NCBI RefSeq assembly: GCF_009812055.1
Contig: NZ_WQNH01000039.1
Coordinates: forward strand, 1 to 64,000
DNA: 64,000 nt
Source: Chelativorans xinjiangensis
GTDB lineage: Bacteria; Pseudomonadota; Alphaproteobacteria; Rhizobiales; Rhizobiaceae
Reading direction: 5' to 3'
The notes beneath the pieces were generated by a model, which saw only the letters and a list, made by a program, of their open reading frames with translations, did no database searches and was not told where the DNA came from. Both the position numbers and the translations under genes were made by a program. Shown here piece by piece: positions 5,343 to 41,085 of this stretch (position 1 is its first letter; each line of letters starts with the position of its first letter).

Positions 5343-5660
5343 ATGCCTGCTGAATTCGAGAAGGCGGTTCAGGACCCTGCCTCGTTCTTTGCCCAGCCAA
5401 AGGACGTCCTCCACGATGCGTCACTCACGCGAGATCAGAAGATCGAGATCCTGCGCCGCTGGGAGTATAACGCCTCGGAGGAAGCGGTGGCCCTCGAAGA
5501 AGGCATGCCGGGAGATGAAACCGGGATATTGAGACGGATCCTGATTGCGCTCGGCGAGGTCGCCGGTCCCGTTAATCTCAATTTGACCGCACCCATCAAG
5601 CAGCACGGCCTATCCCGGAAGGCAGTGGGGCTGCCGAACACGCCGAACACCGGGAAGTAG
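5343..5660 (+). CDS. Conserved hypothetical small protein
   Basis: A 105-residue acidic protein starting at 5343 with a GGGGGGTGAT stretch immediately upstream. The sequence (FEKAVQDPASFFAQPKDVLHDASLTRDQKIEILRRWEYNA, then EEAVALEEGMPG) is mainly helical and matches a hypothetical family often found in alphaproteobacterial accessory regions, where it is taken to be a stress-associated small protein. No catalytic motif, cysteine or membrane segment is visible. It belongs to a row of three small plus-strand genes (5120, 5343, 5725). Confidence 0.6.
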   Translation: MPAEFEKAVQDPASFFAQPKDVLHDASLTRDQKIEILRRWEYNASEEAVALEEGMPGDETGILRRILIALGEVAGPVNLNLTAPIKQHGLSRKAVGLPNTPNTGK

Positions 5661-5724
5661 TAGTCTCGGGGGCCATACTGCCAGGCGATGCATGGGAACT
5701 ACCACACGCGGAGCACGAATCCTG

Positions 5725-5940
5725 ATGCCAATCTGGCTGGTGAAGACGACATGGCTCGAAGACGAGACCGAAGCGACCGAGCAATGGGAAGTGAATGCGG
5801 ACACTGAGCAGACCGCTGTGGAGGAGATCAGCAAGCTTGTGCGGTTTCGGCCGCATCATATCGAGGCGAGCCTGCGCCCCGTGGCCAGAGGCGATGAACC
5901 TCTTCTTTTACCTGGTCAAGTTCGAAGGCTGTCTCCCTGA
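5725..5940 (+). CDS. Small hypothetical protein
   Basis: A 71-residue protein starting at ATG 5725 (MPIWLVKTTW). The opening beta strand (IWLVKTTWLEDETEATEQWEV) followed by a helix (TEQTAVEEISKLV) and RFRPHHIEA looks like a small alpha/beta fold of the kind annotated as hypothetical in rhizobia. The upstream ATG at 5692 would add 11 unconvincing residues. No function can be given. Confidence 0.5.
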   Translation: MPIWLVKTTWLEDETEATEQWEVNADTEQTAVEEISKLVRFRPHHIEASLRPVARGDEPLLLPGQVRRLSP

Positions 5941-6305
5941 TCGGGCCTAGATTCAGGCGTGATATCCCGGTCTTTGCCGCTTGGCGAAATGGGCTGTGTG
6001 AGCACCCCTTGAGGCGCTTGGCTTTGCTGTTCCAGGATGTGGCAAGGCCTTCGGGATCACGCTTGGAAATCGCTTACTTTGTCACGGCGTCGATCAGGCG
6101 CTCGCAACTGACGCCATCATCGCCGGCAATTGCGGCTGCCGTGGTCGGATCCATCGACATATCGCGCCCTGACAAGTCTTCGGATTTCGCTATCTGAGAG
6201 CTATAATATTATGGAGTCCGTTAGAATCGAGACCGGACCATTGAATGCGTAGACCAATTGGCTGTCATGGACGCCGCGCCGACCGGAGCGAGCGCATCGT
6301 ACGCG
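5941..6305. other. Intergenic stretch, no gene seen
   Basis: About 365 bases between a plus-strand small gene and the convergent sulfite-dehydrogenase operon. One short plus frame (6009-6197) has no family features or ribosome-binding site. Base composition around 6180-6260 is AT-richer than the neighbours, but I see no inverted repeat strong enough to call a terminator. Confidence 0.45.
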
Positions 6306-6749
6306 TCATCTCTCCGATGAGAAATGGCGTTTGAGATAGTCAAGAATGCGCTGCTTCGTTCCCCCGTCCGGTTCAGGCATCTTCTGTACCTCAATCATCC
6401 ACCTCAATGTATAATCCCAGCGGGCATCCGTCAGCCGCTGCTGTTTTACGATCGCAAGCGAATGGCAACCTGAACACGTATAGTAGACATCCTCCACACC
6501 GGGAGTATCCGGGAGGCCGCCGAACTCCGTGTTCAGGGGAACTTCGATCTTCGGTTCGGCTCTGCCGCGGCGCGGCGCCATCGGATCATACCTGCCCGCC
6601 GACTGCGCCACAGCGGGCTTGCTGATCGGGAAGACGAACGGGCCGAGACCCCCGAGAATCACGGCCATGGCAATGGATACGGACCGGCCGATCAGCGAGT
6701 GTTTCAGTCCGCGACCTTGCGCCAACGCCACTTTCGCTACAAGTCTCAA
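6306..6749 (-). CDS. sorB: Cytochrome c subunit of sulfite dehydrogenase
   Basis: A 147-residue monohaem cytochrome c. An N-terminal hydrophobic segment (residues 24-45) ending PAVAQS is a signal peptide for export. The single haem site is C92-S-G-C95-H96, and M124 in VQKMPEP is the likely axial ligand. Its ATG overlaps the stop codon of the molybdenum subunit by 4 bases (ATGA), so the two are translationally coupled. In SorAB enzymes this subunit takes electrons from periplasmic sulfite oxidation and passes them to the respiratory chain. The pairing and size support this; the exact class of cytochrome is inferred. Confidence 0.75.
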   Translation of the reverse strand: MRLVAKVALAQGRGLKHSLIGRSVSIAMAVILGGLGPFVFPISKPAVAQSAGRYDPMAPRRGRAEPKIEVPLNTEFGGLPDTPGVEDVYYTCSGCHSLAIVKQQRLTDARWDYTLRWMIEVQKMPEPDGGTKQRILDYLKRHFSSER

Positions 6750-8089
6750 ACGGCTAGCAACGCAATGCGGTGCTGCATGTTGTTGCCGTACCCGCGCGGG
6801 TTCCAGCCTGGAACGACAGGGGGTTGCATCATGCCATCTCCGTCTGTCGCACGGGCCCAGACCTCGTAGTAGCCTGCCTCCGGCAGCGTCACGCTGGCCC
6901 GCCAGCTCTGCCAGGCGAATTTATTGGCCGGCGGGTCGATTTCGGCCTCCGCCCAGGTCTGGCCGAAATCGATGGAGATGTGCATCGCCACGACGTCGCC
7001 CTTGCCACACCAGGCCTTGCCGCGGACCTCGCTCGCCTGGCCGGTCGGCACTTCCGCCCCGGTCTGTGGGAAGGTGATGATCGATTTCACGGGCATCACG
7101 GTGAGGATCTCCATGTCCTGTTCCGGCACCTCCGTTCCCGGTGCCACCGGATAAGCCGGAAGCCGGTACGAGTAGCCGGTCATTTTCGCGCCATCATGCT
7201 CCTTGTCGCGCACCCAAATGCGGGTCAGGTACTTCTGCGAGGCCGATCCCGGATAGCCGGTGATGATGAGACGCAGCGGGAAACCGTGCAGTGCCGGCAC
7301 GGGCTCGCCATTCATCTCCCAGGCGATCAAGTTTTCCGGCTCCATCGCCTTTTCGATGGGCACCCCGCGCGAGATGACGACCTTGTCGGAATCGCCCGAA
7401 ACATCGACGTCGTTGCCGTAGTGACCAGTATATACCGCGCTATCCCTTATGCCGGCGGCATTCAGCACATCGCGCAGCCGCACACCTGTCCACTCCGAAC
7501 AGCCGACGGCGCCGACGGTCCACTGATTGCCCGAGGCGCCTGGCTCGAAATAGGCGCGGCCATTGCCGCCGCACTCGATCCACAACCGTTGGGTCACTGT
7601 CTCAAAGTTGTTCTTCAGATCGTCGATCGTCAACTCGAGCTCGTTGTCGACCTCGCCGTCGATTGTAAGTTTCCAGCCCTCGGCGTTTTGATCCAATGCG
7701 GTCTGCGGCACGAGCCCATTGAAGCGCAGGAAGTGCCGGGAATAGGGCGTCACCTCATCGTCAAGGAGATAAGGCGGGGTCTCGGCATTGAGCGGCCGGT
7801 CGTTCAGCACGGTCAGCCCGTCCTTGCCATTCATGAGTTCCATTCCGGTTTCTTGTGCGAAGGCGACTGGCATCAGTCCTGCCGGCATGTTGCGGTGGAA
7901 AGGTATCGATGCGCCGAGCATCGCACCCATCGTGGCGAGGCCGGCTCCCCGCAGGAATCCTCGGCGATCGGAATTTGCCAATCGCCCGAAAACCAGCCAG
8001 TCAGCCTGCTCAGGCCGCTCGGCGTAAAGTTGGCGAACCTCGTGTGCAGAAAGCTGCCGCTGCGGGTGGCGCGAAACCTGTCGTGTCAT
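6746..8089 (-). CDS. sorA: Molybdopterin sulfite dehydrogenase, catalytic subunit
   Basis: A 447-residue protein of the sulfite oxidase family. Residues 41-51 carry a twin-arginine export motif (SDRRGFLRGAG), preceded by an unusually long 40-residue N-region. The Mo-ligating cysteine is C173 in WIECGGNGR, and GFPLRLIITGYPGSASQKYLTRI is the family's conserved cofactor-domain segment. The C-terminal 110 residues form the dimerisation domain (VRGKAWCGKGDVVAMHISID). A GGAGGAG ribosome-binding site sits just upstream of the start. With the cytochrome gene it forms a two-gene operon oxidising sulfite to sulfate in the periplasm. Other substrates (for example other S- or N-oxides) are possible within the fold. 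Confidence 0.85.
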   Translation of the reverse strand: MTRQVSRHPQRQLSAHEVRQLYAERPEQADWLVFGRLANSDRRGFLRGAGLATMGAMLGASIPFHRNMPAGLMPVAFAQETGMELMNGKDGLTVLNDRPLNAETPPYLLDDEVTPYSRHFLRFNGLVPQTALDQNAEGWKLTIDGEVDNELELTIDDLKNNFETVTQRLWIECGGNGRAYFEPGASGNQWTVGAVGCSEWTGVRLRDVLNAAGIRDSAVYTGHYGNDVDVSGDSDKVVISRGVPIEKAMEPENLIAWEMNGEPVPALHGFPLRLIITGYPGSASQKYLTRIWVRDKEHDGAKMTGYSYRLPAYPVAPGTEVPEQDMEILTVMPVKSIITFPQTGAEVPTGQASEVRGKAWCGKGDVVAMHISIDFGQTWAEAEIDPPANKFAWQSWRASVTLPEAGYYEVWARATDGDGMMQPPVVPGWNPRGYGNNMQHRIALLAV

Positions 8090-8755: not shown

Positions 8756-9367
8756 ATGACCAGACACCGCAGTGACAAGAGAGGTTCCCGAAGGGGCGAA
8801 TGGGGCGACGAAGGCCCCGGCGACTTTCAGGAGCCCAGTTACTTCAGCCGCCGGCCGGAACCGGTTCGGTCGGCAACATCCCAACCCGATCCTGTTGAAG
8901 CTGACGTACTTTGGTTCAACGCTCCAAAGGGATTTGGTTTTGTTCAGCCGCCGGGCGGCGACAAGGCCTTCCTTCATGTCAAGCAGTTGGAAGCTGCCGG
9001 CCTCAGTGACATCGCTGAAGGCGCTCGACTTCGCGTCGTCATCGAACCTGGCCCGAAAGGATTGAACGTCACCAGGGTCACGGAAATCCTGTCGTCGCCT
9101 GCCGTTCCTGCCGATCGACAGGAACGACACCGGAGTTCAGCCAGCCACGATGGAACGGAAGACGAGGCTTTTGGCACGGTCAAATGGTACAATGCCGAAA
9201 AGGGGTTTGGCTTCATCGGACGCTCCGACGGGGGCCCGGACATCTTCGTTCATGCAACGGCGCTGAACCGATCGGGCATCACCACGCTGGAAGAAGGCCA
9301 GGCGGTGATTGTCCGTTATGTCGAAGGGAAGAAGGGGCCGGAGGCCAGGGCGCTAGAGCAGACCTAA
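8756..9367 (+). CDS. Cold-shock protein with two cold-shock domains
   Basis: A 203-residue protein with two cold-shock domains joined by a charged linker. The first (about residues 47-112) has [22 protein letters not shown]; the second (about 138-202) has the canonical [25 protein letters not shown]. Both keep the aromatic RNP1 and RNP2 residues that stack on single-stranded nucleic acid. The N-terminal 45 residues are arginine-rich and disordered. Double-domain versions of about 200 residues are typical of alphaproteobacteria and act as RNA chaperones in cold or stationary phase. The first domain departs from the norm (DVLWFNAP in place of GTVKWFN). Monocistronic. Confidence 0.85.
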
Positions 9368-9601
9368 TTGCTGCTGACCTCATCAACCAGGCGGTCGGAC
9401 CCGTTGGCCCCATATCTATCTTGAAAGCTTCCACGGACATGGCATGATTGGCGCATGACGGTCGCGCAGTGAGTGTCGGTAGACACATGTCAACCTTCAG
9501 CACTCGCGCATCAAACCAGCATATTGAAGCGAATTGTCCGCCCGAAGCAGGTTTGCGCTCATCCTTCAGCGGCACGGCTCGGTTGTAACAGCGATCAGCA
9601 T

Positions 9602-10567
9602 CTAGCCGGGGCGAGAATAGGCCCGAAATGGGTTGTCCTCAGACAACACTTTCAGCGTCCCGTCGTCGACGCCTGAAGCTTTGAGCGACGGCATCATGAC
9701 GTCGGAAAGATGCGTATAGGAGCGCGGCACGCCACCCCCGGGCTTGGCCGGATCGAACCAGCCAACATCGTGGCTGATGAGTAAGTTGTTGGCGTAACCC
9801 GCCTCTAGCGCTCGCAATATCAGGGATTTGACCTCCTCATCCGGGGCTCGGGACACATGGTCATACTCAATCCAGGCTCCACGCGAAACGGCCTCGTCAT
9901 GGTAGCCAAGATCTGTCTCGTTCTGGGTGTGTATCCAGAGGAAGCGGTCGGGCGAATGGCCCTCCTGTTCAATGACATCGAGCTGTGCCATCGCAACGCG
10001 ACCGCGCATTGTGTGGCTTCCGATGACCGCGCCAGTGCGAGCAGCGGCACGGGCCGCAGCACGCAGGATCCGTTCTTCCAACCATGTGATACCATCGTCC
10101 CCGGCGCTAAGCTTGATCCACCCGGCGCGATAATCCGCCTCTTCAAAGCGCTCGGATAGTTCGTGGAACATCCAGGCCTCCAGGGCCTCGTCGTCGGCCT
10201 CCCGAACCGATGGCGTGATCCATGGTTCGCGATAGCTGCCGGTCGGCACAACGATCGGAAAGCTGGTCGCGCGGGACACCGCCAGGTCGAAATCGGCTCG
10301 GCGCCCGACGCCGGTGGTCGAGCATTCGACCAGTGCAGTAACACCACGCCGCTTGATCTCTTCGATCTTGGGCGCCATCACCGCCACGACTTCAGCCTCG
10401 TCGGCCTCACCATAGCCGGGTTTGTCGGGCGTGCGTAGATCGACGAAGACGTGCTCGTGAGGAAGGATCATCCCCAGCTTGTCACGACCGAGCAACCCCA
10501 GAGTGGTATAGAGGTAGCGCTCGGCATCATCCACTGTGGCGGATGTGCCTGGGTATTCGTGGTTCAT
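9602..10567 (-). CDS. Phosphotriesterase-family metal-dependent hydrolase
   Basis: A 321-residue TIM-barrel amidohydrolase of the phosphotriesterase (PTE) family. Metal ligands are visible: H37 and H39 in PHEHVFVD, the bridging carboxylated Lys in GWIKLSAGD, His in IGSHT, His in LWIHTQNE, and the proton-shuttle Asp in LISHDVGWF. All catalytic positions are kept. Natural members of this branch are mostly lactonases or esterases; the substrate here is not predictable from sequence. No signal peptide, so cytoplasmic. The gene stands alone and runs away from the ECF operon at 11 kb; no regulator is adjacent. Confidence 0.8.
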   Translation of the reverse strand: MNHEYPGTSATVDDAERYLYTTLGLLGRDKLGMILPHEHVFVDLRTPDKPGYGEADEAEVVAVMAPKIEEIKRRGVTALVECSTTGVGRRADFDLAVSRATSFPIVVPTGSYREPWITPSVREADDEALEAWMFHELSERFEEADYRAGWIKLSAGDDGITWLEERILRAAARAAARTGAVIGSHTMRGRVAMAQLDVIEQEGHSPDRFLWIHTQNETDLGYHDEAVSRGAWIEYDHVSRAPDEEVKSLILRALEAGYANNLLISHDVGWFDPAKPGGGVPRSYTHLSDVMMPSLKASGVDDGTLKVLSEDNPFRAYSRPG

Positions 10568-11077
10568 CTTGTGGTCCCATCGTCGAGGTTGGAGTGGACC
10601 CGCTGCGACGGTTGGGTTTGGGCACCGGGGTGTCAGAACTGTCGCGGCAAGCGGTATGCAGCGGGAATCCGAGCGGACCTCAGACTAGTCTCCATACATT
10701 GCGGCAGCAAGGCTGGGACGGTGCCGACATTCGGGAAGATGACGACAGAAGCGTTTCACACTTCAAGGTTCTTGACGAAAGCCCTCGCTTTCAAATCGGC
10801 AGAGTCAAGCGACTGTACGGAAGCCTAAAAAGCTCGCGTTGGGGCCGAAAGGCGACTGGCAGGTTCTGGCACCCAAACGGCGAGAGACGACATTCAGGTC
10901 ACCAGACGTAATGAAAATAGGTGACCGATAGCGCTGACAAAGGCGCTCATTGAAATGAATGACCGCATGATGGCGCGCCGCTGACAGGCGCGGCCGCCCG
11001 ATGCGCAGCTGTCAGGATTGTTATCCCATCCGCAAATCAGGTCTCAGGCATCATCGGTTTTACGGCTGGCGGGTCCG
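10568..11077. other. Intergenic stretch before the ECF operon
   Basis: About 510 bases between two divergent units. Frames across it show no family features. Only its right end is interpretable, where the ECF-type promoter and a 50-nt leader precede the DsrE gene. It also marks a change in base composition: the operon to the right is clearly more GC-rich than the DNA to the left. Confidence 0.45.
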
Positions 11078-11103
11078 GGAACTTTTTTCGCACTCCTCGC
11101 GTC
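11078..11103 (+). promoter_or_regulatory. Candidate ECF sigma promoter
   Basis: GGAAC at 11078-11082, a 17-nt spacer that starts with six T residues, then CGTC at 11100-11103. This is the layout of group-IV sigma promoters (GGAAC -35 and CGT-type -10). The start codon of the first operon gene is 50 nt downstream with a GGAGGAG ribosome-binding site. Because the operon encodes an ECF sigma factor, autoregulation is the obvious reading; which sigma factor uses it is inference. Confidence 0.55.
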
Positions 11104-11153
11104 CTTGCCGACGCCGGGTAAGGGAACACCCGGGTCAAGCCAGGGAGGAGAAC

Positions 11154-11522
11154 ATGGCTGAGGGGACGCGCGAGCTCGTCGTTCTGATGAGCCACGGTGC
11201 GGACAACGAGATGTCGTCCGTGGGATTCACCATCGCCAACGGAGGCATGACCGCCGGCCTGAAGGTCTCGATCTTCCTCACGAGCGCCGCGGTGGATCTC
11301 GTGCGCAGGAAGGCGGTCGACATGACCCAGGTCCAGCCGCTCGAGCCGCTTGCCGCGCTCATCCAGGATTTCATCAAGCGCGGCGGGCAACTGTGGGCCT
11401 GCACGCCCTGTGTGAAGTCGCGCGGCTACGAGCAGGGCGACCTCATCGAAGGCGTCGAGATCGTCGGCTCCAGCAAGATGCACGAGCGCATCAAGGCGGG
11501 TGCCGCCACGCTCTCTTTCTGA
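11154..11522 (+). CDS. DsrE-family protein with CxxC motif
   Basis: A 122-residue DsrE/DsrF-like protein, the fold used in sulfur relay (TusD, DsrE). The start at 11154 is set by a GGAGGAG ribosome-binding site. The N-terminus (ELVVLMSHGADNEMSSVGFTIANGG) and the segment KVSIFLTSAAVDLV are typical. C83 and C86 in LWACTPCVKSRGY form a CxxC just where sulfur-carrying cysteines occur in this family. First gene of the six-gene operon running to 14587. Expected role: moving or sensing sulfane sulfur or thiols in the cytoplasm; the partner is unknown. Confidence 0.8.
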   Translation: MAEGTRELVVLMSHGADNEMSSVGFTIANGGMTAGLKVSIFLTSAAVDLVRRKAVDMTQVQPLEPLAALIQDFIKRGGQLWACTPCVKSRGYEQGDLIEGVEIVGSSKMHERIKAGAATLSF

Positions 11523-11600
11523 GCCGCCCCGGCGCCCCGCTGGCGCCGAACGAAGCGATGACGCGCCGCCCCGCGCGTCCCAAAGAGGAGGAGAAGAAAA

Positions 11601-12041
11601 ATGATACGCACAAGCCTGAAGACGCTCGCCATCGCCGCGGCAATCGGCTTCGCGCCCTGGTCCGCGCTCGCGCAGGACGATGCGCTGCCGGAAGGCTTCA
11701 CCACCGAGCCGCTGCTCAAGACCAGCGTCACCCGCGACGATGAGCCGATCACCTACCCGACCGGCAAGCCTGAGATCATCTCGGTCATCGGCACGCTGGA
11801 GAAGGGCGGGCGCACCGCGCTGCACGAGCATCCGGTGCCGGTCTACGTCTACCTGCTGGAAGGCGAGATCGAGCTGAAATCGGAAGGCGGCGAGCCGCAT
11901 CGCTACAAGGCCGGCGAGGCCTTCATCGAGGCGCAGAACCGCAAGCACCAGGCCTTCAACGTCGCCGACGGGCCGAGCAGGCTGCTCGTCGTCTTCGTCG
12001 GCGAGGAAGGCAAGCCGACCAGCGTGGCCGCCACTCAGTAA
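11601..12041 (+). CDS. Exported cupin-domain protein
   Basis: A 146-residue cupin with a Sec signal peptide (residues 1-24, basic start, hydrophobic core, cleavage after SALA before QDD). Motif 1 contains H75 and H77 (LHEHPVPVYVYLLEGEIEL) and motif 2 has H116 (NRKHQAFN), giving a plausible mononuclear metal site in the periplasm. An AGAGGAGGAG ribosome-binding site precedes the ATG at 11601. It lies 78 nt after the DsrE gene and 62 nt before the first methyltransferase. Similar exported cupins are poorly characterised; metal or small-anion binding in the periplasm is inference. Confidence 0.75.
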   Translation: MIRTSLKTLAIAAAIGFAPWSALAQDDALPEGFTTEPLLKTSVTRDDEPITYPTGKPEIISVIGTLEKGGRTALHEHPVPVYVYLLEGEIELKSEGGEPHRYKAGEAFIEAQNRKHQAFNVADGPSRLLVVFVGEEGKPTSVAATQ

Positions 12042-12103
12042 AGGGCAGAACGCGGCAATGCTCCGGCCGGAGCACCCGCCGGGCAACAGGAGGAATGATC
12101 ACA

Positions 12104-12883
12104 ATGACCGCGACGACCGTAGCGTTCGACCCTAGGGATCTGGAAGCCAAGGTGAAGGACATGTACCGCGCCGTGGCCGAGAACCCGCAGGGCGAGTTTC
12201 ATTTCGAGATGGGACGCGGCCTTGCCGAGCGGCTCGGCTATCCGCCGGCCGATCTCGACCGCATCCCGGCCGAATCGATCGCCTCCTTCGCGGGCGTCGG
12301 GTATTACTTCCACCTAGCCGGCCTCAAGCCCGGCGAGACCGTCGTCGACCTCGGCAGCGGCTCGGGCATGGATACCTTCATGGCCGCGCTGCACGTCGGC
12401 GCGAGCGGCACCGTCATCGGCGTCGACATGACCGACGAGCAGCGCCGCAAGGCGGAGCGCCTGCGCGACGCGGGCGGCTTCGTCAATGTCAGCTACATCA
12501 AGGGCTACATCGAGGAGGTGCCGCTGACCGACGCCTGCGCCGACGTGGTCATCAGCAACGGCGTCATCAACCTCGCCACCGACAAGCAGAAGGTCTTTGA
12601 GGAGGTCGCGCGTCTGCTTCGACCCGGCGGCCGTTTCGCGATCTCCGACATCGTCACCGAGGTGCAGTTGCCCGACAGCATCGTGTGCAACTCCACGCTG
12701 TGGGCCGCCTGCATCGGCGGCGCGGCGCAGCAGGACAGTTACCGCGACCAGATCGAGCGCGCCGGCATGCGCGTCGAGACCGTTGAGGACAATCCGGCCT
12801 ACGCCTTCATCTCCGACAACGCCAAGTGCGCCAGCCGCAAATACGGCGTCAAGAGCGTGTCGATTCTGGCGGTCAAGGCCTGA
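12104..12883 (+). CDS. SAM-dependent methyltransferase, ArsM-like (copy 1)
   Basis: A 259-residue class I methyltransferase. I start at ATG 12104, 10 nt after AGGAGG; the ATG at 12095 lies too close to that site. The SAM loop is DLGSGSGMD (residues 82-90), followed by GVDMT and the [13 protein letters not shown] segment. The N-terminal block [19 protein letters not shown] and the SFAGVGYYF segment are shared with copy 2 at 13799. As in arsenite methyltransferases, a cysteine occurs in LWAACIGGA (C203), with C195 and C242 nearby (AKCASRKYG); the N-terminal ArsM cysteine is not seen. The methyl acceptor could be a metalloid or a thiol compound; this is inference. Confidence 0.75.
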
Positions 12884-12936
12884 GCGGTCGCGCTCCGCCC
12901 GATTGCGGGCGGGCGCGCCAGATGGCAGGATGCGAC

Positions 12937-13533
12937 ATGGGCGAGGACCCGGACCGTGCCTTCTTCAGGGCCGAGATCGAGAGGCTGACCGACTGCCTCT
13001 ACGGGACCGCCTTGCGGCTGACGCGCAATCCGGCCGACGCCGAGGATCTGGTGGCCGAGACCGTGCTCAAGGCCTGGGCGCATTTCGGCCAGCTCTCGGA
13101 CCGTCAGTCCTTCCCCAAATGGGTGTTGCGCATCCTCGCCAACACCTTCGTGTCAAACCGGCGCCGCGTCCGCCCCGAAAGCTTCGAGCCGCTCGATATC
13201 GACGACGAGGAGTGCTGCTTCTCGCTGTTCGAGAAGATGCACCAGCCCTTCCTGCTCTGGTGGAGCAATCCCGAGCAGGAGTTGATCTCCAAGATGCTGC
13301 GCGAGGACATAGAAGCCGCGATCGACGCGATCCCGGATGCGTTCCGCACCGTGCTGATCCTCGTCGAAACCAACGGACAGTCTTACGCGGAAGCCGCCGA
13401 TGCACTCGGCCTGCCGGTCGGCACGGTGCGCTCGCGGCTCAGCCGCGCCCGCTGCCTGCTGCAGAAAGCTCTGTGGGAGCAGGCGCTTGAGACTGGTTTG
13501 CATCCACAGGAGCGGAAGGTGGCAGATGCCTGA
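12937..13533 (+). CDS. ECF-family RNA polymerase sigma factor
   Basis: A 198-residue group-IV sigma factor. Region 2 is LYGTALRLTRNPADAEDLVAETVLKAW; region 4 is the helix-turn-helix AIPDAFRTVLILVETNGQSYAEAADALGLPVGTVRSRLSRAR. Between them is a long linker with FSLFEKMHQPFLLWW and two adjacent cysteines (EECC). I prefer ATG 12937, 7 nt after an AGGA; ATG 12922 in frame is possible. The last 8 bases overlap the anti-sigma gene, which is the classic sigma/anti-sigma coupling. Likely target: the GGAAC/CGTC promoter at 11078 and its own operon. Confidence 0.85.
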   Translation: MGEDPDRAFFRAEIERLTDCLYGTALRLTRNPADAEDLVAETVLKAWAHFGQLSDRQSFPKWVLRILANTFVSNRRRVRPESFEPLDIDDEECCFSLFEKMHQPFLLWWSNPEQELISKMLREDIEAAIDAIPDAFRTVLILVETNGQSYAEAADALGLPVGTVRSRLSRARCLLQKALWEQALETGLHPQERKVADA

Positions 13534-13765
13534 AAGCAAGTACATTCGCTGCGAAGAGGTGGTGGAACATCTCCTGACATTCCTCGACGGAGAAGCCGAG
13601 GAGAGCCGCAGGAAGCTCATCGCGCAGCACCTGGAGGAATGTCGGAGCTGCTGCTCCAGGGTCGATTTCGAGCTCGCCCTGCGCCACAAGGTTCAGGAAA
13701 CCGCGACGCGGAAACCGACCGTGCGGCTCAAGCAAAAGATCAGGCAGCTCATCGACGAGTTCTAA
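13526..13765 (+). CDS. Soluble zinc-type anti-sigma factor (zf-HC2)
   Basis: A 79-residue protein with the ZAS signature H35-x3-C39-x2-C42 plus C9 as probable fourth zinc ligand and an extra C43. There is no membrane segment, so it works in the cytoplasm. In RsrA-like members, oxidation or metal exchange at this centre releases the sigma factor. The gene starts inside the sigma gene (8-base overlap), so the pair is made together. The small size (only the zinc helices and a basic tail) is typical of the minimal ZAS group. What it senses is unknown; thiol oxidants or thiophilic metals are the natural guesses. Confidence 0.8.
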   Translation: MPESKYIRCEEVVEHLLTFLDGEAEESRRKLIAQHLEECRSCCSRVDFELALRHKVQETATRKPTVRLKQKIRQLIDEF

Positions 13766-13798
13766 CCGGAGAGAAAAAACAAGAAAGGCAGGTGCGCC

Positions 13799-14587
13799 AT
13801 GGTTGCGGTGTTGGGGTTCAATCGGGAGCAGATCCTGAATGCCGTCCGCGACATGTACACGGACGTCGCGCGCGAACCGGGAAGGGTCTTCCACTTTCCC
13901 ACCGGCCGGGAGGCCTGCCTCTTCGTCGGCTACCCGCAGGAGTGGCTGGACGCCCTCCCTGCCACCGCGGTGGAATCCTTCGCCGGCGTCGGCTTCCCGT
14001 TCCGCGCCGGAATCATCAAGCCCGGCGACCGCGTGCTCGACATCGGCTCCGGGTCGGGCACCGACGTTCTGAGCGCCGCACGGCTGGTCGGCCTCATGGG
14101 CAAGGTCTACGCGCTCGACATGACGCCGGCCATGCTCAACAAGCTGCGCGACAATGTCGAACACTGCTGGGCCGAGAACGTCGTCGTGCTGGAAGGCAAC
14201 GCTGAGGCGATCCCGCTCCCGGACGCCAGCGTCGACGTGGTCACCAGCAACGGCGTACTCAACCTGGTGCCGGACAAGCCGCGCGCATTCGCCGAGATCT
14301 TTCGCGTGCTGCCCCCGGGCGGCTCCGTGCAGATCGCCGACATCGTCGTCGGCAAGCCGATCAGCGAGAACTCGCGCGCCAACCCGAAGCTCTGGGCCGA
14401 ATGCGTCGTCGGCGCCTCGATCGAGGACGATTATCTCAACATGTTCCGCGACGCCGGCTTCGAGGACGTCAGCGTCCTGCGCGGCTTCGACTATTTCGCA
14501 GCGAGTTCCAGCGACGACACCCGCCGCGTCGCCGGCGCTCTCGGCGCCAGGGCGGTGGAGATACGAATGACCAAACCGGAGTGTTGA
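13799..14587 (+). CDS. SAM-dependent methyltransferase, ArsM-like (copy 2)
   Basis: A 262-residue paralogue of the methyltransferase at 12104. Shared landmarks are DMYTDVAREPGRVFHFPTGR, a GYP, SFAGVGFPFRAG, the SAM loop DIGSGSGTD (residues 81-89), LDMTPAML, SNGVLNLVPDKPRAFAEIFRVL and ADIVVG. A cysteine aligned with the ArsM active-site region is kept (C202 in LWAECVVGA), whereas the C-terminal KYG-type ending of copy 1 is replaced by another tail ending in cysteine. The two enzymes may act in sequence or on different acceptors. It is the last complete gene of the operon, 33 nt after the anti-sigma gene; only a hydrolase fragment follows. Confidence 0.75.
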   Translation: MVAVLGFNREQILNAVRDMYTDVAREPGRVFHFPTGREACLFVGYPQEWLDALPATAVESFAGVGFPFRAGIIKPGDRVLDIGSGSGTDVLSAARLVGLMGKVYALDMTPAMLNKLRDNVEHCWAENVVVLEGNAEAIPLPDASVDVVTSNGVLNLVPDKPRAFAEIFRVLPPGGSVQIADIVVGKPISENSRANPKLWAECVVGASIEDDYLNMFRDAGFEDVSVLRGFDYFAASSSDDTRRVAGALGARAVEIRMTKPEC

Positions 14588-14604: not shown

Positions 14605-14736
14605 GCAATACGCAGTCAGCACGATGCCCGGCTTGTCATCTACGACACCGGTGGGCACATGCTCGTGGGCCTCGACGAGGACGCAAGAAAGCTGGTCCGC
14701 GGCTTACTTGAAAGCGTTGGTGCAGCGCCCTCTGTC
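14605..14736 (+). pseudogene. Alpha/beta-hydrolase, C-terminal fragment
   Basis: The plus frame reads AIRSQHDARLVIYDTGGHMLVGLDEDARKLVRGLL, the usual ending of an alpha/beta hydrolase, with the catalytic His in GGHMLVG and a closing helix. No upstream part exists: it begins about 17 nt after the methyltransferase stop. Similarity stops near 14730, where the tyrosine recombinase on the other strand begins. The operon may once have continued into a hydrolase gene that was deleted by recombination here, or the fragment arrived with the mobile element. Confidence 0.55.
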
Positions 14737-15356
14737 CCCTCTGCCAATGCGAGAGCATCCTCGGTGTCCACGCCGAGATAGCGGACGGTGTTCTCGATCT
14801 TGGTGTGGCGAAGCAGGATCTGCACCGCGCGCAAGTTGCCTGTCGCCTTATAGATTATTGAGGCCTTGGTCCGCCGCAGAGAATGCGTGCCGTACTCCTC
14901 GCGGCGAAGGCCGATGGCCGAAACCCATTCATCGACCAGACGGGCATATTGGCGCGTGCTCATGTGTGCCGAATGATCGATCCGGCTCGGGAAGGCATAG
15001 TCGTTGATCGTTCCGCCACGCCGCTCAAGCCAAGCGAGCAGGCTCGCCCGTGCGTCGGCCATTAGCTCAAACTGAACAGGACGACCAGTCTTCTGCTGAA
15101 TCACCAATGCACGAGTCCGAATCTCCGGCCCGATGACCAAGGTGGCAATCTTGATCTTCACGAGGTCGCAGCCTTGCAGTTTACTGTCGATGGCGAGATC
15201 GAACAGCGCGCGATCTCGCAATCGACGTTCGCGATCAAGGAAGAAGCGGATTGCCCATATCTGTCGCGGCTTCAACGCTCGTTTCGCGCCGACCTTCTTG
15301 CCGGCATTCCAGGCACGCCGCTCCTGCACAGCAGGGTCATATTGTGAATGTCCCAT
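14640..15356 (-). CDS. Tyrosine recombinase (integrase), probably inactive
   Basis: A 238-residue site-specific recombinase of a compact type found in rhizobial accessory DNA. The C-terminal catalytic boxes are present: THSLRR (HxxR), the ILLRHTKIENT region and RYLG with the Tyr nucleophile. The box-I Arg position, however, reads SKLQGCDLV, where the related copy at 28.8 kb has SKLRGCDLV (CAA versus CGA, one base), and the LLGH glycine is Arg. The last 25-30 residues run into the hydrolase fragment on the other strand and are not integrase; the natural end was probably near 14740. I infer loss of activity. Confidence 0.75.
   Translation of the reverse strand: MGHSQYDPAVQERRAWNAGKKVGAKRALKPRQIWAIRFFLDRERRLRDRALFDLAIDSKLQGCDLVKIKIATLVIGPEIRTRALVIQQKTGRPVQFELMADARASLLAWLERRGGTINDYAFPSRIDHSAHMSTRQYARLVDEWVSAIGLRREEYGTHSLRRTKASIIYKATGNLRAVQILLRHTKIENTVRYLGVDTEDALALAEGTEGAAPTLSSKPRTSFLASSSRPTSMCPPVS

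Positions 15357-41009: not shown

Positions 41010-41085
<76 letters not shown>

Follow-up and report, generated by a model that had tools for sequence, protein, structure and literature searches.

What would a bacterium methylate with two enzymes whose genes lie beside those of a sigma factor and an anti-sigma factor? The question is raised by a cluster of six genes in Chelativorans xinjiangensis, found in the first 64,000 nucleotides of contig NZ_WQNH01000039.1 (assembly GCF_009812055.1), hereafter the window. The cluster spans 11154-14587 and consists of six open reading frames (ORFs), all on the plus strand, for a DsrE-family protein, a small cupin, methyltransferase 1 (MT1), an extracytoplasmic function (ECF) sigma factor, a soluble zinc-finger anti-sigma factor (ZAS), and methyltransferase 2 (MT2) (Table 1). 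The initial annotation of this DNA had listed six genes in this order on one strand, together with a CxxC motif in DsrE, an HxxxCxxC motif in the ZAS, and an 8-base overlap of the ECF and ZAS genes. All six ORFs were recovered, Pfam supports each family, and both motifs and the overlap (13526-13533) are present. We tentatively read the cluster as a self-contained, self-amplifying thiol-stress operon that would methylate soft, thiol-bound toxic species, a reading to which we give a little less than an even chance.

The ECF-ZAS-MT2 core and its promoter

Orthologues of MT2 were sought in 15 congeneric genomes, 384 others of the class sample, and 397 others of the phylum sample. They were found, at 60-63% identity, in 5 of the 15 congeners (G003, G004, G006, G007, and G011), and also in 1 genome of the class sample (G115) and 3 of the phylum sample (G554, G598, and G822). 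A short-peptide-pattern scan of named genomes yielded 28 loci, of which L028-L045 (18 loci) reach an identity of at least 51%; these come from Chelatococcus, Nitratireductor, Aromatoleum, Azoarcus, Thioalkalivibrio, Aquisalimonas, Aidingimonas, Saccharospirillum, and metagenome-assembled genomes (MAGs), one of which is named Gemmatimonadetes and contributes a contig of 6.6 kb. ECF-ZAS-MT2 thereby extends over Alpha-, Beta-, and Gammaproteobacteria and this one Gemmatimonadetes MAG. The loci compared here number 28 (the window, the 5 congeners, L028-L045, and 4 further genomes); they are not independent and include several near relatives, e.g., four from Aromatoleum/Azoarcus, and their genes were called by home-made scripts, which may miss or misplace genes. 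L043 and L045 start within MT2, and 26 loci, the window included, retain upstream DNA.

In all 26 of these loci the ZAS gene immediately precedes MT2 on the same strand, and in 25 it is itself immediately preceded by the ECF gene (cut short by a contig end in L030); L026 has only a 28-residue sigma remnant there. Because both adjacencies are so constant, the conserved core is, judged by gene order, ECF-ZAS-MT2, and its partners DsrE, cupin, and MT1 vary. Conservation outside the strain had been proposed as a test of the cluster; the core stands up to it, and the complete order DsrE-cupin-MT1-ECF-ZAS-MT2 is confined to the window among the 28 loci. The order lacking DsrE recurs in six other loci (L028, L029, and L032-L035), and it appears in the public annotation of plasmid pCO-6 of Chelatococcus sp. 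CO-6 (MT1 gene of 360 bases), an observed case of plasmid carriage of the cluster. Cupins of four groups, related or unrelated, occur near the core in 17 of the 28 loci, a third methyltransferase (MT3) occurs in 6, not counting a weak 44-bit label in L022, and an AraC gene occurs in 5.

Several features identify the protein encoded after the sigma factor as a ZAS anti-sigma factor: the motif C...H-x3-C-x2-C, a gene that adjoins the ECF gene, and a sequence without a membrane segment (best 19-residue hydropathy, 0.2). All 26 rows have the four ligands (C9, H35, C39, and C42 of the window ZAS). The pair resembles SigR-RsrA and RpoE-ChrR in that the ECF gene directly precedes that of a soluble ZAS with C-H-C-C ligands and in its predicted autoregulation. 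It differs from SigR-RsrA in scoring below the curated cut-offs for SigR/SigH (SigH_actino, TIGR02947; 118.5 versus 251.55 bits) and RsrA (TIGR03988; 48.7 versus 62.5 bits), and from both systems in its promoter element (CGGGAAC...GCGTCCT) and in having methyltransferases as output genes. ChrR carries a cupin fused to its ZAS, whereas the window cupin is a separate protein, predicted to be exported. The initial annotation had already called this cupin exported; its family is borne out by Pfam, and its N terminus looks like a signal peptide, as judged by eye only. RsrA-type factors sense the state of thiols or metals (a redox role), and by analogy the window ZAS may do the same.

The promoter element emerged from a count of all 5-mer/4-mer dyads over the intergenic segments of 21 loci, in which the top-ranked dyad was GGAAC plus GCGTC at a fixed distance, with one exact spacing in 13 loci. 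GGAAC-N15/16-GCGTC precedes a cluster gene in 16 of the 21 loci; 200 dinucleotide shuffles gave 0.095 such loci on average and never more than 2. The consensus across loci is CGGGAAC-N15/16-GCGTCCT. The cluster had been described as starting at base 11078, which is not the start of a gene; it is the first letter of GGAACTTTTTTCGCACTCCTCGCGTCCT (11078-11105; GGAAC-N16-GCGTCCT), the conserved element itself. A wider scan, which began up to 4.7 kb ahead of the MT2 frame start and reached up to 2.5 kb past it (shorter at contig ends), found the element in 22 of 25 loci, the exceptions being L023, L031, and L037; L030, L043, and L045, cut at their start, were excluded from this count. In ten loci (L038-L042, L044, and L099-L102) copies are oriented away from the ECF gene, and in several of these they face a divergent cupin, MT1, or MT3 gene. 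A copy also precedes the AraC gene or the homologous region in all five congeners, ~7.3 kb from the ECF gene in G003. Such placement is that predicted for an autoregulated ECF system, and we regard autoregulation of the ECF/ZAS unit, with the sigma factor presumably using this element, as very probable.

A wide regulon was considered and dropped, since matches in the organism's own genome are rarer than those of a reversed control for both the longer pattern (3 versus 18) and the short one (52 versus 93). Over 15 whole genomes, 22 of the 50 matches to the longer pattern lie in an ECF cluster and 1, by position, at the AraC gene of G003. The regulon looks local because the reversed control is commoner than the true pattern in most of these genomes. 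In L099 (G115), two near-identical MT3 copies (5403-6272 and 9254-10123) flank the ECF cluster, the second with an element copy of its own.

Comparison with ArsM and selenocysteine relatives

Both methyltransferases had been termed ArsM-like, and in sequence they are: ArsM is the best PDB match of METHYLTRANSFERASES (MT1, 1.7e-25; MT2, 9.4e-31) and the first structural match of the AlphaFold model of an MT2-MerC fusion from L040 (mean pLDDT, 85.0), consistent with a class I S-adenosylmethionine (SAM) methyltransferase fold. Methyltransf_31 is the top Pfam match of both proteins, the glycine-rich SAM motif is conserved in MT2, and arsenite methyltransferase models rank first in NCBIfam with scores below their curated cut-offs (NF008823 [ArsM], 220.4 bits for MT1 and 199.2 bits for MT2, versus 263). 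Quinone or chlorin methylation, which the initial annotation had named as an outcome that would overturn its proposal, was rejected on the basis of scores far under the UbiE-type cut-off (at best 53.7 bits for MT1 and 65.8 bits for MT2, versus 378); no BchM-ChlM model was among the best 25 of 46 NCBIfam matches of MT1 or the best 25 of 56 of MT2.

The likeness need not extend to arsenite methylation, which the comparisons below disfavor in its canonical form. Where CmArsM has its arsenic-binding C72, C174, and C224, both MT1 and MT2 show Val, Gly, and Cys. Around C174 the sequence is SNC in all 30 NF008823 proteins above the cut-off (most of which belong to a single family of the sample) and likewise in 5 of 5 other fetched relatives; it is SNG in MT1, MT2, 7 of 7 selenocysteine (Sec) proteins, and 3 of 3 haloarchaeal proteins. 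In a tree of 70 rows, built by a quick method without bootstrap and with a program warning of long branches meeting, MT1, MT2, and the haloarchaeal and Sec proteins form one clade (SH-aLRT, 99), and the 8 ArsM rows used (of 30) form another (99). According to a published study, the C174A and C224A variants of CmArsM were both inactive on inorganic arsenic and monomethylated arsenic (PMC3877260). MT1 and MT2 further differ from ArsM/AS3MT in lying beside ECF/ZAS genes and in the MerC fusion of MT2 relatives. Arsenite methylation as the default explanation was dropped on the Cys and clade tests, and we judge it probable that neither protein is a canonical arsenite methyltransferase.

A modified form of the arsenic explanation was retained, in which MT1 and MT2 would be divergent As(III)/methylarsenite methyltransferases, acting on arsenic or antimony and induced by arsenite on the ZAS thiols. 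It draws on the match to ArsM and on the Cys kept at the C224 position. Near the invariant Cys (C202 of MT2, in 28 of 28 rows, or the corresponding C203 of MT1, in all 11 rows that have a residue at this position) lies a second Cys in 10 of 12 MT1 rows (C195, a possible second ligand) and in 14 of 28 MT2 rows, the window MT2 not among them; because of this residue, a metalloid-binding Cys pair is possible. Passages of published work add that trivalent dimethylarsenic is bound by one Cys only (PMC3877260) and that an ArsRM enzyme is reported, with a docking model, to be active with non-Cys ligands (PMC10190100). A selenoprotein table in PMC13188914 counts an “arsenite methyltransferase” (UxxG; NF008823) among its “Experimentally verified” entries, with Fomenko 2007 as the source. 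That entry speaks for arsenic, for a member of the ArsM model, and the proteins above the cut-off of this model have SNC, so that the listed enzyme need not be of the SNG kind; it moved our estimate for arsenic slightly upward and that for the thiol-stress operon slightly downward. Besides the lost Cys residues, the scores, and the clade, the genomic context also stands against arsenic: the organism's own genome has no protein above the NF008823 cut-off and no other ArsM candidate above 78 bits, and no ars gene was recognized among the selected neighbors scanned. Arsenic as the substrate is, in our view, unlikely.

In seven sister proteins of the same class, an in-frame TGA stands exactly at the conserved Cys (LWT[A/S]-TGA-IAGG), i.e., at the C224 position of ArsM; MT1 and MT2 have Cys there and do not show the LWxxU of the Sec forms. 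Because selenocysteine occurs at this very site, comparison of the sequences argues that the residue is chemically active. One compared locus, L036 (betaproteobacterial MAG BroJett031), has a presumed Sec methyltransferase gene (11774-12541, TGA at codon 200) 540 bases past its MT2-MerC gene, with a small opposite-strand gene between. This gene has its own element copy (11711-11737), and the genome has selD; the SECIS-like hairpin is weak (z, -1.87; 11 of 200 shuffles as good). The cut-off of the selD model was exceeded in all seven Sec-form genomes searched (G387 was left out) versus none of three Cys-form genomes (G000, G003, and G007).

The seven lone Sec proteins resemble MT1 and MT2 in clade and in the signature SNG...LWxx(C/U), and three models of fused Sec ArsM-like forms (NF041536, NF041537, and NF047649) are among the best NCBIfam matches of both. 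Unlike MT1 and MT2, those models carry other C-terminal domains, and the gene calls within ~4.6 kb of the seven include no ECF, ZAS, or MerC relative. No neighbor is common to all seven; L158 and L159, a close pair, have genes in common, and the neighbors of L162 and L164 are related. In PMC13188914, the fused forms are tabled after “Predicted with high confidence,” and the functions of most such selenoproteins are described as largely uncharacterized.

MT1 relatives are also encoded on three haloarchaeal plasmids (L121, L122, and L123), two of them after DUF1059 and OsmC genes and before a gene for a small hydrophobic protein and one after a CMD-family gene.

The OsmC and CMD genes could point to peroxide stress, and thereby to a defense against oxidants or electrophiles (peroxide, hypochlorous acid, or singlet-oxygen type) in which the methyltransferases would repair or cap an oxidized or thiol product and would not methylate an element. 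The RsrA-like ZAS, the CMD gene in L031, the thioredoxin gene after MT2 in L032-L035, and the AraC-type regulators beside DsrE or near the core all agree with such a defense. Neither the Cys/Sec at the position of ArsM C224 nor the MerC domain considered below is explained by it, and the association of DsrE, MerC, and methyltransferase is unlike that of known peroxide operons. We hold it to be improbable.

MerC, DsrE, and the proposed mechanism

MT2 carries a C-terminal MerC domain in 18 of the 28 loci, 16 of them with complete fusions of 400-419 residues. The two fusion proteins scanned with Pfam score 34.2 and 45.9 bits for PF03203, above its cut-off of 27.6, and the calls in the remaining fusions rest on similarity to the MerC of L044; four long helices within residues 289-401 of the L040 model agree with the assignment of these MT2 relatives to the family. 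Nine loci, the window included, have a short MT2 without MerC, and L044 has a cut MT2 and a separate MerC gene. The scores invite the explanation that the MerC domain deals with mercury or another metal, the methyltransferase serving for sensing or binding and not for catalysis. The conserved glycine-rich SAM motif speaks against this, as do the nine MerC-less forms of MT2, the own genome, in which no MerC match was found, and the single transmembrane Cys of the fusions (CYG in 12 of 12 aligned) in place of the paired Cys of MerC proteins. Such a role is very improbable.

The DsrE protein belongs to its family by score (62.5 versus a gathering score of 22.7 bits), and all 10 aligned rows have its CxxC. 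A phmmer search of the PDB with its sequence gave no match, and a Foldseek search with its model (pLDDT, 86.8) gave DsrE/DsrF-like proteins (3mc3 and 3pnx), YchN (1jx7), DsrEFH, and TusBCD. DsrE homologues occur in three genomes without an MT2 orthologue (G010, G045, and G047). One of these, G047, has a DUF302-like/MerC/DsrE/MT3 run (L125, 6151-8317, minus strand) that adjoins a winged-helix/TPR regulator gene and has no ECF, ZAS, or MT2 among its gene calls; because of this run, DsrE, MerC, and methyltransferase are seen to associate without the switch as well. In G003 (L023), a fused SoxY-SoxZ protein is encoded at 10792-11565 on the minus strand, two gene calls upstream of DsrE.

For the thiol-stress operon, we propose the following mechanism. 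The Cys/His zinc site of the ZAS would hold the sigma factor inactive until a thiol-reactive signal oxidizes the site or releases its zinc; the freed sigma factor would then transcribe its own operon from CGGGAAC-N15/16-GCGTCCT. The target would be some soft toxic species bound to thiols; reduced or reactive sulfur, or else a related chalcogen, is the likeliest candidate, and the CxxC of DsrE may carry it. MT1 and MT2 would bind it on their one invariant Cys (Sec in the sister enzymes) and methylate it with SAM to a less reactive, probably volatile product. The exported cupin would act outside, and in most relatives the MerC-type domain of MT2 may move substrate or product across the inner membrane. 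A thiophilic or reactive-sulfur response with methylation as its output, as first suggested for this cluster, is supported in outline, with the inducer and the output put forward as predictions.

DsrE, the Sec form, and the missing C174 make us favor sulfur or selenium, and methylation of such a species is possible, at odds we set at rather below even. SAM methylates nucleophiles, so that chemically S, Se, Te, and trivalent As can serve as acceptors and Hg(II) cannot. Comparable chemistry is known from TPMT, an animal enzyme described as methylating hydrosulfide, polysulfides, and persulfides, with selenite-derived anions named in a section title (PMC13089183); the likeness lies in the proposed SAM methylation of hydrosulfide, persulfide, or selenide.

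Several observations weigh against the thiol-stress operon as proposed. DsrE occurs in only 6 of the 28 loci, which places a sulfur carrier outside the core, and MT1 occurs in only 11 (truncated in L028, and with the Sec gene of L036 excluded). In two Chelatococcus records (L028, 8712-9068, and L120, 4712-5071), MT1 is shortened to 119-120 residues beside ECF, ZAS, MT2, and cupin genes of normal length. MerC takes its name from mercury, a metal not readily methylated by SAM, and the element shows no genome-wide excess. To these are added the second Cys, the ArsRM enzyme with non-Cys ligands, the verified Sec entry, and the haloarchaeal OsmC and CMD genes described above.

Each component is of a known kind; the gene combination, the element, and the fusion of an SNG/Cys-Sec methyltransferase with MerC look undescribed. 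Titles and starts of abstracts in the open-licence literature gave no description of the combination, element, or fusion, the available part of PMC7406223 has nothing on the gene set, and an ECF group number may already exist, as may a description of the neighborhoods of the Sec relatives outside the open-licence literature covered. That the whole amounts to an undescribed pathway, joining a zinc-thiol ECF switch, SAM methylation of reactive sulfur or selenium by a Cys/Sec family, a MerC-type domain, and an exported cupin, is doubtful enough that we offer it only as a conjecture. MerC fusion, Cys/Sec exchange, promoter, and ECF-ZAS-MT2 core all lie beyond what the initial annotation described.

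Since the regulatory unit is conserved and its promoter element can be read, reporter screening rather than guesswork could reveal the substrate. The comparison also places a Cys/Sec branch of “arsenite methyltransferase-like” proteins in an apparent inducible stress operon, accompanied in one genome by a Sec version, and suggests that “arsenite methyltransferase” labels may be wrong for proteins with SNG in place of SNC. If the substrate is indeed reactive sulfur or selenium, bacteria would own a dedicated, sigma-controlled methylation route, a nonoxidative, methylation-based counterpart of persulfide dioxygenase systems.

Genes of the window and their surroundings

Table 1. Positions of the cluster genes, the predicted promoter element, and neighboring features in the window
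Feature	Position	Strand	Evidence or motif
Predicted ECF promoter element, CGGGAAC-N16-GCGTCCT	11076-11105	+	Ends 48 bp before the DsrE start codon
DsrE-family protein, 122 aa	11154-11522	+	Pfam DsrE, 5.2e-17; C83-x-x-C86
Small cupin, 146 aa, apparent signal peptide	11601-12041	+	Pfam Cupin_2, 3e-14
MT1, 259 aa	12104-12883 (start may be 12095)	+	SNG 151-153; C195, C203, C242
ECF sigma factor, 203 aa, distantly SigR/SigH-like	12922-13533	+	Pfam Sigma70_r4_2, 9.1e-13; Sigma70_r2, 2.2e-11
Soluble ZAS, 79 aa	13526-13765	+	Pfam zf-HC2, 8.8e-07; C9...H35-x3-C39-x2-C42
MT2, 262 aa, short form without MerC domain	13799-14587	+	SNG 150-152; invariant C202
Tyrosine recombinase ORF	14640-15356	-	Directly after MT2
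Molybdopterin sulfite oxidase-type gene	6746-8089	-	
GGAAC-N17-CGTC copy	8158-8133	-	43 bp before the start of the sulfite oxidase-type gene
tRNA-Phe gene	41010-41085	-	

The ORFs of the cluster have a GC content at third codon positions of 0.79-0.90, and their codon use is as expected for genes. Upstream of the cluster, a sulfite oxidase-type gene is preceded by an element-like copy (Table 1); copies of this type number 3 in the window versus 0.94 expected, so that this one may be due to chance. No element copy was seen upstream of five sulfite oxidase homologues, whose genomes have no MT2 orthologue, and the gene is at most a candidate member of the regulon. A search for phage carriage of the cluster gave no match at 1e-30. 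The GC content is 60.4% over 1-41000 (operon excluded) and 65.9% over 41100-64000, with the tRNA-Phe gene at the boundary, and the operon itself has 65.7%; this contrast, the tRNA boundary, and the tyrosine recombinase ORF beside MT2 suggest a genomic island.

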